Below, one piece after another: positions 8,605 through 12,535 of a stretch of 12,852 bases of DNA; position 1 is the first letter of the stretch; each line of letters begins with the position of its first letter. The DNA is from Deltaproteobacteria bacterium (GTDB lineage Bacteria > Desulfobacterota > Desulfobacteria > C00003060 > C00003106). The stretch covers positions 1 through 12,852 of the forward strand of contig JAFDAE010000040.1 in NCBI GenBank assembly GCA_019314005.1, in the 5' to 3' direction. The notes under the pieces are model-generated. The model had not been told where the DNA came from, ran no database searches, and saw only the letters and a list, made by a program, of their open reading frames with translations. The translations under genes and the position numbers were made by a program.

Positions 8605-9756
8605 ATGAAAATAGCGCTAATACAAAAAAATTTTTCTTCTCATAAGGGAGGAGCGGAACAATATGCGGTAAACCTCGCGGGGGCGCTCATGCGTCAGGGA
8701 CATGAGGTCACTGTTTTCGCGAATCAATGGGACCGTTCCTCAGCCGAAGGGCTAAAATTCGAATACGTGCCGATGATAAAGTCCCCATCCTTTTTGCAAA
8801 CTTTCTCATTTGTACGGAACACCCAGAAGGCTCTTTCCAAAGGCCGTTATGATATTGTACACAGCCTGGCCCGAGTTTTCCCTCAGGACGTGTACAGAAT
8901 GAGTGACGGGATATATCGCTATTGGCTCGCAGTCAAAGAGCGGAATCGGTTCAAGAGGTTAATGAATTTTTTCAGCCTTAGGCATTTGGCTATTCTTTTG
9001 GTAGAAAAACAGATTTTTGCCAAGGGCAACTTTCGCAGAATTATCGCGAATTCGCAATTGTGCAAAGGCCATGCAATTCAATACTACGATGTTGATCCAG
9101 CACACATTACGGTGATACAGAATGGCGTGGATTTCGATCGGTTTAATCCCCGCGTTCGCTTCGCTTATCGGGAGAAATTGCGCACGTCTTACAACATTGC
9201 CGAAGACGATATAGTAATTCTTTTTGTGGCCATGAATTTTCGCAGAAAGGGCCTGATTCCTCTCTTGAAAGCTCTGAGTTTCTTATCGAACACTGATAGG
9301 GTGAAACTTTTAGTTGTTGGAAAAGGTAAAACAGGATATTTTAAGCGCCTTGCTTCAAAGATGGGCATTGGGGAAAAAGTTATATTTGCGGGGCCGACGT
9401 CAAAGATGGAACAATACTATGGGGGAGCCGATTTTTTCGTCCTGCCGACCTATTATGACCCTTTTGCCAATGTATGTGTCGAGGCGCTTGCCTGCGGGTT
9501 GCCTGTTGTCACTACAAGAACAAATGGCGCGTCAGAGATGATTGAACCCGGGGAAAACGGCTTTGTTGTCAATAAACCGGATGACATTAAGCAACTTTTA
9601 GAGGCGATCATAAAACTCACTAACCCCAAACTCCGCAATAGCATGGCAGAAAACGCTTTCGAAAGTGTAAAACACTTAACAATAGAAGAGCATGTAAGCA
9701 AAGTCTGCCGGGTATATGAGGAGATCTTAAAGGAAAAACGTGCCAGGCAGGATTGA
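8605..9756 (+). CDS. waaG: GT4 glycosyltransferase, WaaG-like (LPS core)
   Basis: A 383-residue GT-B fold protein, close to the length of E. coli WaaG. The N-terminal domain has the glycine loop HKGGAEQYAVNLA (residues 13-25) and RQGHEVTVFA. The C-terminal donor domain starts at VIQNGVDFDRFNP and has NFRRKGL (R213, R214, K215), GGADFFVLPTYYDPFANVCVEALACGLPVVTT and the EX7E-type motif as D285...E293. WaaG-family enzymes add a hexose to heptose of the inner LPS core at the cytoplasmic face of the inner membrane. The call rests on the donor-domain motif and the WaaG-then-WaaP order, as in E. coli; another GT4 acceptor is possible. It has no strong ribosome site and starts one base after the preceding stop, so it is probably coupled. 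Its 3' end overlaps the kinase gene by 17 bases. Confidence 0.75.
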   Translation: MKIALIQKNFSSHKGGAEQYAVNLAGALMRQGHEVTVFANQWDRSSAEGLKFEYVPMIKSPSFLQTFSFVRNTQKALSKGRYDIVHSLARVFPQDVYRMSDGIYRYWLAVKERNRFKRLMNFFSLRHLAILLVEKQIFAKGNFRRIIANSQLCKGHAIQYYDVDPAHITVIQNGVDFDRFNPRVRFAYREKLRTSYNIAEDDIVILFVAMNFRRKGLIPLLKALSFLSNTDRVKLLVVGKGKTGYFKRLASKMGIGEKVIFAGPTSKMEQYYGGADFFVLPTYYDPFANVCVEALACGLPVVTTRTNGASEMIEPGENGFVVNKPDDIKQLLEAIIKLTNPKLRNSMAENAFESVKHLTIEEHVSKVCRVYEEILKEKRARQD

Positions 9757-10645
9757 AATTACACCCCTAAACAACATCGTGGTCAACAAGGCGTATAAAG
9801 AAGTATTGGTTGAAAATCGACTCGATACTTTCAAGTCCTTCATGCAATATGCCAATGTAGAAATCGCCAAACAGGTTATTAAGGAACGTAGTACGGCAAG
9901 GTTGATCTTGGATGATGGCCGTACTCAGTCTATTTTTTTTCTTAAGCGGCATATCTCGCCTTCTGTAAGGGAATATCTTAAGCTTCTTACCAGATTTTCC
10001 TGGCCTAAGTCCGCTTTCAATGAGTGGCGGGCCATTCTCCGCTTCCATCAGGTAGGACTCCCGACCATGGTTCCTGTGGCGGCAGGAGAACAAAAAAACA
10101 GTCTGGGGCTTGTCATACAATCCTTCCTTTTGACCAAGGAAATAAAGGATGCACACCGCCTTGATCATTATCTTGCGCAGTGGCTTAAGAAACCTCTGTC
10201 AAAAGAACAGATTCAGCGAAAAAGACTTCTGGTACAGCAATTAGCACAGATGACTCAAAAAATGCATACCATGGGGCTTAACCACAGAGATTATTATCTG
10301 TGCCACATATTCATTCGAACTACTGAAGAAAACGGGGAATTTGAGCTTTTTATTATTGACCTGCATCGCGTTGACATTCGTAAGAAGGTAGGAAGACGCT
10401 GGCTAATCAAGGACCTGGCCGCACTTAATTTTTCTTCATTGGAGCTCCCCATCCATACCACGGACCGTATGCGTTTTTTCAAACTCTATCTTCAAAAAGA
10501 GCGTTTGAATGAGGACGACCGTGTTCTTCTTGGTCAAATTCTAAAGAAAACCAAAAGAATAGCTCGTCATACGGAAAAGATGGTAACTGCTCAGGTTCAC
10601 AGTTCCGGGGTTCACGGTTCAAGGTTAGAGAACGATGAGAATTGA
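9740..10645 (+). CDS. waaP: WaaP-like LPS core heptose kinase with C-terminus altered by a cassette insertion
   Basis: A 301-residue protein starting at GTG 9740, with AAAGGA (9729-9734) 5 bases upstream. WaaP features in order: SIFFLKRH (beta-3 lysine), FNEWRAILRFHQVGLPTMVPVAAGE (aligned Glu and hinge), MHTMGLNHRDYYLCHIF with catalytic D184 in HRD, FIIDLHRVD with D207 in place of the DFG aspartate, and GRRWLIKDLAALNFSS. WaaP phosphorylates heptose in the inner LPS core, a cytosolic step that strengthens the outer membrane. The last 18 or so residues after EKM (VTAQVHSSGVHGSR...) are encoded by the inserted element. Without it the frame would read EKMYKKG and stop. The active site is untouched, so the enzyme is probably functional. 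The stop TGA lies inside the four-helix-bundle gene (11-base overlap). Confidence 0.85.
   Translation: MPGRIEITPLNNIVVNKAYKEVLVENRLDTFKSFMQYANVEIAKQVIKERSTARLILDDGRTQSIFFLKRHISPSVREYLKLLTRFSWPKSAFNEWRAILRFHQVGLPTMVPVAAGEQKNSLGLVIQSFLLTKEIKDAHRLDHYLAQWLKKPLSKEQIQRKRLLVQQLAQMTQKMHTMGLNHRDYYLCHIFIRTTEENGEFELFIIDLHRVDIRKKVGRRWLIKDLAALNFSSLELPIHTTDRMRFFKLYLQKERLNEDDRVLLGQILKKTKRIARHTEKMVTAQVHSSGVHGSRLENDEN
10575..10582 (+). repeat. Target-site duplication, left copy (AAAAGATG)
   Basis: AAAAGATG ends immediately before the GTAAC terminus of the cassette and is identical to the copy at 11057-11064. Confidence 0.85.
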
Positions 10646-11056
10646 ACGTTTTGAAGATATTGAAGCCTGGCAGCTGGCACGTGAATTGGCTCGAAAAGTG
10701 TACCGCCTGACAAAAAAGCCGGGATTTGCGAAGGACTACGGGCTGAAGAGACAGATACAGGATGCTGCCGGGTCATCGATGCATAATATTGCCGAAGGTT
10801 TCGATTCCGAGACGAATACAGAGTTCGTTCGGTTCTTGCGATACGCTAAGCGGTCTTGCACAGAAGTCCAGAGCGAACTCTACCTCGCCGTGGATGAAGA
10901 GTACATATCGCCCGGTGAATTCAAGGATGTCTACGAACAAGCCAGGCGAACACGTGCTGCAGTTCGTGGATTTATCAACTATCTCAAGAAATATGAAGAG
11001 CGCAAAGTAGCCAACCCTGAACCGTGAACCTTGAACCCAACAACCTGAGTAGTTAC
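10583..11056 (+). mobile_element. 474-bp transposase-less cassette carrying a four-helix-bundle gene, IS66-like ends
   Basis: The left end GTAACTGCTCAGGTT (10583-10597) and the right end AACCTGAGTAGTTAC (11042-11056) are inverted copies matching at 14 of 15. Inside them GGTTCA-rich repeats face each other (left 10608-10626, right 11016-11038), so a transcript could fold into a long stem with the gene as its loop. The cassette is flanked by a perfect 8-bp direct repeat. IS66-family insertion sequences are known for ends beginning GTAA and for 8-bp duplications, so an IS66-type transposase may mobilise it in trans; that link is inference. The only gene is the 130-codon four-helix-bundle gene. 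The insertion replaced the last codons of the upstream kinase. Confidence 0.85.
10635..11027 (+). CDS. Four-helix-bundle protein (23S rRNA intervening-sequence protein / S23 family)
   Basis: A 130-residue, highly helical protein. The family pattern is clear: FEDIEAWQLARELARKVY at the N-terminus, LKRQIQDAAGSSMHNIAEGFD in the middle, FVRFLRYAKRSCTEVQSELYLAVD, then a last helix ending INYLKKYEERK. Relatives are encoded in intervening sequences of 23S rRNA genes (for example in Leptospira and Coxiella), form pentameric four-helix bundles, and are related in fold to the Avd protein of diversity-generating retroelements; their function is unclear. Here the gene sits in a mobile cassette, not in rRNA. 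Start ATG 10635 overlaps the kinase stop by 11 bases, with only a weak AGAG upstream, so translation is probably coupled. The last residues (VANPEP) are encoded by the right-hand repeat. Confidence 0.88.
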   Translation: MRIERFEDIEAWQLARELARKVYRLTKKPGFAKDYGLKRQIQDAAGSSMHNIAEGFDSETNTEFVRFLRYAKRSCTEVQSELYLAVDEEYISPGEFKDVYEQARRTRAAVRGFINYLKKYEERKVANPEP

Positions 11057-11064
11057 AAAAGATG
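11057..11064 (+). repeat. Target-site duplication, right copy (AAAAGATG)
   Basis: AAAAGATG starts immediately after the GTTAC terminus of the cassette. Joining it to the upstream kinase frame gives EKMYKKG followed by TAA. Confidence 0.85.
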
Positions 11065-11112: not shown

Positions 11113-12535
11113 ATGATGCCGCACGCCAACAATATCCACTGGGAAATATTGGAAACTCAGGATCACCTCTTCCGTACACATAGCCTCGAGAACCCTGAAT
11201 CTCTGATTAAAGAATGCCAGGTAATTAAAGAAGGTCACGAAAGAGCTGTCTATTTTTACAAGGCAGCGGGCGTTTATATAAAATGCATGCGTCGCGGGAA
11301 GGCAAAAAAAGAATGGCGAAACTGGACAAGGCTCTTTGAGGTAGGTCTGCCCACGATTATCCCGATTGCCATGGGTGTTGCCAGGAATTGTGCTTACCTT
11401 GTCTCCGTGGCGCCTTGGTGCAGTAGTCCGCAATATGCACAAAGCCGGTTTTTATCATCGGGACCTTCACGGCGGGAATTTCATATTCCGCTCTGACGGG
11501 AGGGACTTTGATTTAAAGATGGCCGATTTTCAAAGAGGTTGCTTCAAGAGGATCTCTCTCAGCCGAAGGTTAAGAGATTTGGCCGACCTGGCATTGTCAC
11601 ATTTTTTTCATGTGGGGATTAAGGAACAATTGGCCTTTTTGACAGGATATTTAGGGAGTCCTCAGGACGCGAAGACCTTTATCCGGCAGAGGGGGGAACG
11701 GCTGGAAAACCTCATTCTCAAGCGTGCAAGTCTTGTGGCCGACCGCAAGGTGCGCAAATCACGCACGGTTAATAAATACTTTGACCGTTTAACTCTTCAA
11801 GGCGGCCGGTACAAAGGTGTTTATCTCAAAAAAAACCGGGATCTGATTCCTGAATCTTTTCTGTCTTCGCCTTTGGATTTTCTTTACAGAAAGGAAGTCG
11901 GGGTACTCAAGGACTCCCGGTCGGTGCGGGTGGTCAGGTATCAGGATGTTTGTATCAAATATTATAAACGGCGCGAGGCCAAGGACTTGTTCAAGAGTTT
12001 GTTGGGATTGAGCAAGGGTAAAAAGAGTTTTCACTGGGCCCTGGCTATGCTATACCGCTTTATAGCAACCCCGGAGCCATTGTGCTACCTGGAGGGCCGG
12101 GGAGGTGATTCCTTTTACCTGAGTCGGTTTGTTGATGATGCCCGCAATCTGGTGATTTATCTGCGGGAAGTACCAGAGGAAAAGCGGAAGGCGTGTCTAC
12201 AATCTCTGGCCATCTTCCTAAACAGAATGTTTTACCGCGGAGTCTATCACATGGATCTCAAAGGGTCCAACATTCTGGCCAGAGACAATGGTCCGGAATT
12301 TGAGTTTTACCTGATTGACACCGATGAGATAGCCATTTCCTGGAAGGGTTTTCCTGCACTGCTGAAAAAGAGCCTCTTGAGAATCTTGCGCACGCTGGTT
12401 TCCTATTTTGGCCGTCAGGAGTTGGTGGAGTTTGCCGGCGCCTGTTTGCCCGTCTTGCCAACCCGGTCGCTGTCCGGGAGCCCGGAAGATCTGGTAGAAC
12501 AGGTATTGAAGATGCAGGCGGCGCAACAACATTGA
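11113..12535 (+). pseudogene. Two-domain LPS sugar kinase (WaaP/Kdo-kinase-like), first domain broken by an out-of-frame deletion
   Basis: The N-lobe of kinase domain 1 is read from ATG 11113: VYIKCM (beta-3 Lys), KKEWRNW (Glu), VGLPTIIPIAMG. Its catalytic part lies in another frame from about 11411: LGAVVRNMHKAGFYHRDLHGGNF (HRD aspartate at 11462) and MADFQRG. The hinge proline to the catalytic-loop His of MH spans 88 bases here, against 68 codons in the neighbouring WaaP-like gene, so roughly 115 bases seem to be missing. A second kinase-like domain follows in the second frame: VCIKYYK, GVYHMDLKGSNIL (HMD, aspartate at 12254) and LIDTDEI (aspartate at 12317). The intact protein would have been about 510 residues and probably phosphorylated core sugars. 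Domain 2 could survive if translated alone, but the only nearby start is a TTG at 11366. Confidence 0.7.

Follow-up and report, generated by a model that had tools for sequence, protein, structure and literature searches.

The interrupted kinase gene and the inserted element

The window (the whole stretch of DNA analysed, 12,852 nucleotides) harbours a cluster of glycosyltransferase and lipopolysaccharide (LPS) kinase genes. One of the kinase genes, preceded by a glycosyltransferase gene and followed by a second kinase gene, is entered near its 3' end by an element with one gene of the 23S rRNA intervening-sequence protein (IVP) type. The following features were found.

9740 to 10582, plus strand: interrupted host gene, lipopolysaccharide kinase (PF06293; RfaP-like; WaaP/RfaP-type), entered near the 3' end
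10575 to 10582, no strand: target duplication, left copy, AAAAGATG, 8 bp
10583 to 11056, plus strand: whole element, 474 bp, delimited by its ends and the flanking direct repeat
10583 to 10597, plus strand: left terminal inverted repeat GTAACTGCTCAGGTT, class A, IS66-like
10583 to 10645, plus strand: in-frame extension of the upstream kinase reading frame across the left arm; its stop overlaps the IVP start
10594 to 10626, plus strand: left arm, a degenerate 7-bp array (GGTTCAC, AGTTCCG, GGTTCAC, GGTTCAA); period 7 is also found in relatives
10635 to 11027, plus strand: 23S_rRNA_IVP / four helix bundle gene, 130 aa (PF05635, TIGR02436)
11013 to 11038, minus strand: right arm, inverted 7-bp units, plus-strand reading AACCCTGAACCGTGAACCTTGAACCC
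11042 to 11056, minus strand: right terminal inverted repeat, minus-strand reading GTAACTACTCAGGTT
11057 to 11064, no strand: target duplication, right copy, AAAAGATG, 8 bp

The inverted ends GTAACTGCTCAGGTT and GTAACTACTCAGGTT are identical at 14 of 15 positions, and the two copies of AAAAGATG are perfect and abut the element on both sides. A scan of the window for the end pattern, allowing up to three mismatches, returned just these two ends, both exact, at a chance expectation of 0.84. The inverted arms extend inward past the ends over 44 nt with 77% complementarity, and the repeats just inside the ends belong to 7-bp arrays, which characterise many IVP loci and not this copy alone. The IVP gene and one overlapping frame are the only ORFs of at least 80 aa within the element. 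TnpC (PF03050) is absent, so that this is not a complete IS66 element; in the profile scan the IVP matched PF05635 alone.

When the flanks were joined in silico, the kinase obtained a tail, ...KKTKRIARHTEKMYKKG, of the size found in the close relatives L232, L233 and L234. Kinase tails were recovered for 9 of the 12 fetched homologues, and those besides these three differ more. An empty site of the window's own locus was not found among the kinase homologues (100 of 297 genomes matched, the closest being 42% identical). Many frames related to the kinase measure about 540-605 aa. The downstream kinase gene is split over the overlapping frames 11113-11496 and 11366-12535, which resembles a frameshift, either biological or from assembly. 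The overlap of the kinase stop with the IVP start would make translational coupling possible. The element does not lie inside an rRNA gene: it sits in the glycosyltransferase/LPS kinase cluster, and an Rfam search of the window at gathering thresholds gave 0 matches.

The IVP gene, its transcript and its orientation

The window protein matched PF05635 with 99.6 bits (E 1.5e-28; curated cut-off 33.8) and TIGR02436 with 96.8 bits (cut-off 24), which places it in both families. Among solved structures, 2gsc (XCC0516; E 7e-10) is closest to it in sequence. Comparison with nine relatives yielded dN/dS ratios of 0.07-0.13, and the IVP gene is therefore under purifying selection; 54 of 81 reading frames were used, while 27 were left out because the matched stretch contained stops, frameshifts or N. 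In phage records no IVP match was found at E 1e-5.

The earlier note had proposed that the facing repeats fold the transcript into a stem capped by the gene, and in silico this was borne out. RNA of positions 10575-11064 has a predicted folding energy of -168.7 kcal/mol, compared to -133.8 (sd 6.3) for shuffled sequences, none of 100 shuffles being as good (z -5.5). The predicted outer stem spans the element from its first to its last base. As in rRNA intervening sequences (IVSs), terminal inverted repeats are thus predicted to close a stem around the ORF.

IVP genes show an orientation bias. Among 104 genes compared with their two neighbours, 81 are on the same strand as both and 5 are opposite to both (+/+ 81, +/- 13, -/+ 5, -/- 5). 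Adjacent ORFs are generally co-directional (450 of 576 pairs), so part of this pattern is operon structure; the figure of 81 versus 5 concerns the IVP's own direction.

An 8-bp duplication peak among IVP loci

A scan of genome contigs revealed 435 IVP relatives, of which the best 80 were retained. In total 153 profile matches were reduced to 117 distinct IVP genes with both flanks and, after removal of L034 because of an N run beside the gene, to 116. This set consists of 71 genes from the best 80 of the 435 relatives, 9 plasmid genes, 35 further copies (chosen or best-scoring) and the window, and is not a random sample.

GTA...TAC ends together with a perfect direct repeat were found for repeats of 8 bp at 6 of the 116 genes, compared to 1 at 5 bp, 0 at 6 bp, 1 at 7 bp and 0 at 9-11 bp. 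A control with swapped partners gave 0.85 at 5 bp, 0.30 at 6 bp and 0.00 at each length from 7 to 11 bp. With one mismatch allowed, the count at 8 bp rose to 9 of 116 (control 0.40), against 5 at 7 bp (control 0.95) and 6 at 6 bp (control 3.95). The nine cassettes with an 8-bp repeat of at most one mismatch are the following.

Class A: the window, L001, L002, L003
Class B (GTAACCGTTCA/GTAGGCGTTCA): L024, L030, L038
Anammox (GTAACTATTYAG): L170, L195

The 8-bp duplication expected of an IS66-type non-autonomous element is hence present in perfect form at the window and as a peak in the set. A single 8-bp repeat could arise by chance in a long search, and it was considered that chance accounts for the 10575/11057 repeat as well as for the ends, the IVP gene being an ordinary member of the operon. 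The set-wide swapped-partner control, the amplified ends and the miniature copies (see below) refute this at the level of the family and leave it next to no probability.

With up to three mismatches, ends on both sides of the gene were found at 12 of the 116 loci for class A and at 10 for class B, and at 0 with shuffled flanks. The expectation that such ends are conserved around other four-helix-bundle genes was thus correct for these loci but not for most IVP genes: 107 of the 116 have no GTA-type ends plus 8-bp repeat at one mismatch. The 17 target repeats that were gathered are 80% A+T, compared to 50% in the flanks of the set. A regular role of the duplication as donor of the following gene's start codon was also considered. 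ATG forms its last three bases in three of the nine cassettes (window, L001, L003), and in L001 and L003 it provides the ATG of the next ORF, so this is not a rule. In L198, an anammox IVP of a different type has near-class-A ends (GTAGCTACTTAGG / GCGACTACTCAGG) and AAGGCTG-like units.

Ends shared with IS66 elements

IS66 insertion sequences have GTAA-type ends and an 8-bp duplication as well; for two Paracoccus IS66 elements, 8 is given in a table (PMC3281130). In two cases the resemblance of IVP cassettes to IS66 reaches identity of 15-18 terminal bases: the cassette L170 and the IS66 element L303, from one anammox genome, share 18, and the cassette L024 (Eth-SRB2) and the IS66 element L093 (Desulfosarcina widdelii) share 15. 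The window cassette differs from IS66 in carrying an IVP gene and no transposase gene.

The window's own end type was found in L293, an IS66 element with an intact TnpC (ORF 814-2523; PF03050 E 4.8e-43). Its ends are GTAACTACTCAGGTC, which lies 17 bp downstream of the TnpC stop codon, and GCAACTACTCAGGTC on the opposite side, with 16 of 20 bases agreeing between them. The window ends agree with L293 over GTAACTNCTCAGGT at its right end, and with its left end with one further change. Terminal repeats are consequently shared with IS66 through L293 for the window and over 15 and 18 nt for the class B and anammox cassettes. Furthermore, the exact class A 13-mer lies beside a decayed TnpC in Eth-SRB2 (L096/L098, one place), and L084 has GTAACTTCTCACG at both ends. 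Within one mismatch, the class A motif occurs at 12 places in 57 IS66 loci (196,084 bases), in which L132 and L098 repeat L084 and L096. The view that class A ends do not occur in IS66 was overturned by the exact 13-mers in L293 and L096/L098 among these 57 loci. PF03050 was confirmed by profile for L084, L303, L093 and L293. A matching 8-bp repeat is absent at L293 (8 of 8 positions differ), L303 and L084, and the IS66 copies with ends closest to those of the window are therefore not proven to be intact units.

Perfect 8-bp repeats were found at the IS66 elements L294 (ends GTAACTTCTCA), L284 (GTAACAGCTCA/GTAACCGCTCA), L285 and L286 (both GTAACCCTTCA) and L280 (GTAATCGTTCA/GTAACCGTTCA); L093 has the likewise perfect 8-bp repeat GTATCTTT and the ends GTACGTGTTCA/GTAACCGTTCA. 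The pattern GTAACNNYTCA fits at least one end of each of these six elements; class A conforms to it too, and so does class B at its GTAACC end. Deviating ends are GTAATC (L280), GTACGT (L093) and, in class B, GTAGGC/GTAAGC, and differing ends occur in the IS66 elements L081, L092, L101, L273, L274, L281 and L292. A looser pair rule (9 of 15 end positions) was passed by 25 of 51 IS66 loci and also by chance pairs; only the loci with GTA-type ends were used.

PF03050 was detected in 7 of 13 IVP-holding genomes and in 2 of 5 further genomes. The 6 of 13 IVP genomes without a match, among which G005 with 108 copies of the end motif described below, are mostly draft metagenome-assembled genomes. 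With the TnpC of L084 as query, IS66 was found in one of eight genomes of the same order, the match being L084 itself, and in 70 of 395 genomes of the phylum.

Amplified ends and gene-less derivatives

The end motif GTAACTNCTCAGGTT, with at most one mismatch, is present in 12 of 13 genomes holding IVP relatives, with 119 copies in G013 and 108 in G005, while counts for the reversed motif range from 0 to 3 across genomes. It does not exceed this control in G009 (1 versus 2) and G010 (0 versus 3). Twenty stretches of G013, chosen around motif matches, contained 7 paired elements with 8-bp repeats (at most one mismatch), and other pairs without such a repeat. Three of the copies with repeats are 90 bp long and gene-less with both arms fused (L150 and L156 with a perfect repeat, L149 with one mismatch), and L152 is a copy of 188 bp that retains a remnant of the IVP start. 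A copy of 104 bp in another genome (L118) has AATTATAG on both sides. Longer motif pairs were rejected: L143 and L144 (2.2 kb, G013) hold ORFs read as chemotaxis/flagellar genes and have no repeats, and L141 (1.1 kb, G013) has no 8-bp repeat.

Since the miniatures L147, L157 and L159 of G013 combine the same IS66-like ends with a different heptamer (TAGGCTG type), ends and arms are separable modules. The movement of gene-less copies is what would be expected if the IVP were an idle passenger and arms and miniatures spread purely as IS66 ends. The low dN/dS ratios and the occurrence of heptamer arms with IVP genes across phyla speak against this explanation, which is considered improbable.

The window element is, in all likelihood, an IS66-type non-autonomous element, i.e. 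a mobile insertion cassette, with an IVP gene as passenger. The earlier note's description, a discrete cassette that lacks a transposase and has IS66-like ends and an 8-bp duplication, is upheld by the set-wide control, by the gene-less derivatives with 8-bp repeats, by the end identities with IS66 of 18 and 15 bases and by L293, an IS66 element with the window's end type. On the note's further suggestion, that the bundle protein may aid spread or processing, the evidence points both ways: dN/dS reveals selection on the protein, but copies lacking the gene have moved as well.

Arrays of 7-bp units around IVP genes

Within 150 bp on either side of the gene, an array of period 7 (score at least 10) was found at 66 of the 116 IVP genes, lag 8 at 13 and lag 14 at 49; each remaining lag from 4 to 13 occurred at one gene at most. 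At score 14 the lag-7 array was found at 44 of 116. ORFs elsewhere in the IVP loci (score at least 14, N-runs kept) have lag 7 in 49 of 299 cases, lag 8 in 6, lag 14 in 42 and other lags in 3-5; the lag-7 arrays at these non-IVP ORFs are solo arrays. The upstream flank matched the reverse-complemented downstream flank at a score of at least 14 at 59 of 116 loci, compared to 18 of 116 for direct matches and 5 of 117 inverted matches in a control with the downstream flank of another locus. At 19 of 23 loci of the GGTTCA type the arm matched its own partner better than the mean of the others (22.9 vs 17.1); the likeness between the arms of one element therefore goes further than the unit they have in common.

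The heptamer unit depends on the lineage: GGTTCAN mostly in Desulfobacterota, AAGGACN in WOR-3, AAGAACN in planctomycetes and relatives, TAACTGA in Calditrichia (L215), GGGAGTA, GGGTGTA and AGGAGTC in cyanobacteria, and others. In some planctomycetes and WOR-3 the arrays are direct, not inverted. Genome-wide triples, counted in 16 genomes or records, were found for AAGGACN in one (G024, 8 times), for AAGAACN in three and for GGTTCAN in seven; the AAGAACN pattern is less clean, with 19, 10 and 2 matches of the reversed control in G021, G022 and G031. At L215 the TAACTGA units flank the IVP gene in inverted orientation. G026 (L243-L272) contains 34 tandem TAACTGA pairs versus 0 reversed.

Nineteen plasmid loci (16 cyanobacterial) were available, 8 of 15 records of one list and 11 of 28 of another, the lists partly overlapping. 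A lag-7 score of at least 14 was found on a side at 12 of 19, and an inverted match of at least 14 at 10 of 19; other lags scored at most 10, lags 8 and 14 being outside this count. One operon present on two Nostoc plasmids (L133/L138) has the IVP gene at different junctions, each plasmid showing the site of the other empty; by eye no 8-bp repeat was found at these junctions. On another Nostoc plasmid (L134) the IVP gene lies on the opposite strand between the genes for ribonucleotide reductase beta and alpha, with GGGAGTA/TACTCCC arrays. IVP genes also occur inside cas operons of the cyanobacterial plasmids L136, L139 and L308 (cmr2/IVP/cmr3 once, cas6/IVP/cas4 twice), and 18 IVP genes in cas loci have been reported, according to the part of that paper available (PMC3936711). 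Judged by their arms, the cas-operon IVP genes look like insertions rather than cas genes.

These arrays bear on what the primary mobile unit is. It might be the IVP gene plus heptamer arms, with its own mode of movement, possibly linked to RNA or reverse transcription as for its relative bAvd; IS66 ends would then have been captured later in some lineages. Consistent with this, heptamer arms occur in phyla where no IS66-type ends were seen, the 66 genes with lag 7 exceed the nine with GTA ends plus 8-bp repeat, the plasmid loci with lag-7 arrays are part of a mostly cyanobacterial collection, the Nostoc junctions display mutual empty sites with no 8-bp repeat, and the same ends enclose different heptamers (L147, L157 and L159 vs L150). 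On the other hand, the analysis turned up no other enzyme and no other rule for the boundaries, the 11 window proteins scanned include no reverse transcriptase domain, and sharp boundaries, where present, are IS66-like. This own-mechanism alternative is given a probability well short of even. That IVP plus heptamer arms is a module older than its IS66 dress is put forward with similar caution.

Proposed mechanism and comparison with known systems

For the window element as an IS66-type cassette, the following model is proposed. IS66-like terminal repeats would enclose one IVP gene between inverted arms of 7-bp units, in place of a transposase. Its likely mover would be an IS66 transposase (TnpC) acting in trans and leaving the 8-bp duplication, and miniatures devoid of the gene would arise by internal deletion. 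Being inserted co-directionally with transcription, the cassette would become part of the operon mRNA; there its arms would pair into a stem that encloses the IVP gene, as happens in rRNA IVSs. Through RNase III-type processing or local masking of this stem, the host transcript would probably suffer less damage. As a helix bundle of the bAvd-like type, the IVP may bind the stem RNA or its repeats and thereby promote persistence of the element.

Mobile insertion cassettes and miniature inverted-repeat elements (MITEs) are transposase-less, have the ends of insertion sequences, carry a passenger gene and occur with short gene-less derivatives. The window element resembles them in all these respects and differs in its passenger, an IVP gene with heptamer arms that fold the transcript. 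We know of no IS66 cassette with IVP and heptamer arms. In the open-access literature, which excludes most subscription papers, neither an IS66-type IVP cassette nor an IVP-heptamer module was found, and the available part of the Paracoccus IS66 paper describes no MITE (PMC3281130).

The IVS in Coxiella rRNA encoding S23p/IVP, as far as described in the text available, measures about 430-470 nt, has one IVP ORF, terminal inverted repeats that close a stem, and tandem heptameric repeats upstream of the S23p ORF (PMC4990558). The window element shares these properties. It differs from rRNA IVSs in its location in a protein-coding operon and in its IS66-type target duplication. A related helix-bundle fold is found in bAvd of diversity-generating retroelements (PMC10053308, available part); PF22296 matched the IVP of L170 weakly, below the cut-off. 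Unlike these retroelements, the window contains no reverse transcriptase domain, which applies to the 11 proteins scanned in these 12.9 kb only. Intergenic 7-bp units are also known from Beggiatoaceae, where TAACTGA, the same unit that flanks the IVP gene of L215, forms arrays of which most sets lie just before start codons (PMC4679880, available part). In contrast, 2 of 21 distinct TAACTGA arrays of G026 precede an ORF start. The words 23S, helix bundle and intervening had 0 matches in the text of that paper, so under those words it makes no tie to IVPs. 

It is possible, though at present tentative, that IVP genes with inverted 7-bp arms constitute one superfamily of mobile elements. This would comprise rRNA IVSs, operon cassettes (with IS66 ends in some phyla) and gene-less derivatives, and would be the source of the puzzling heptamer arrays found in many genomes, such as the TAACTGA arrays and the STRR of cyanobacteria. 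Cyanobacterial STRR are intergenic heptamer arrays with 7-bp units. Both arms would be renewed together, because the unit differs between elements yet agrees across the gene.

The origin of rRNA IVSs has been called unclear, a remnant of transposition being one old guess (PMC4990558, available part). Here a gene and stem of the IVS type form a DNA cassette with sharply defined IS66-type ends, target duplications and miniatures, which makes this guess testable. For the spread of heptamer arrays no evident mechanism was recognised in the available part of the Beggiatoaceae paper (PMC4679880); the 7-bp arms connect IVP genes to these genomic heptamer arrays as well as to rRNA intervening sequences.
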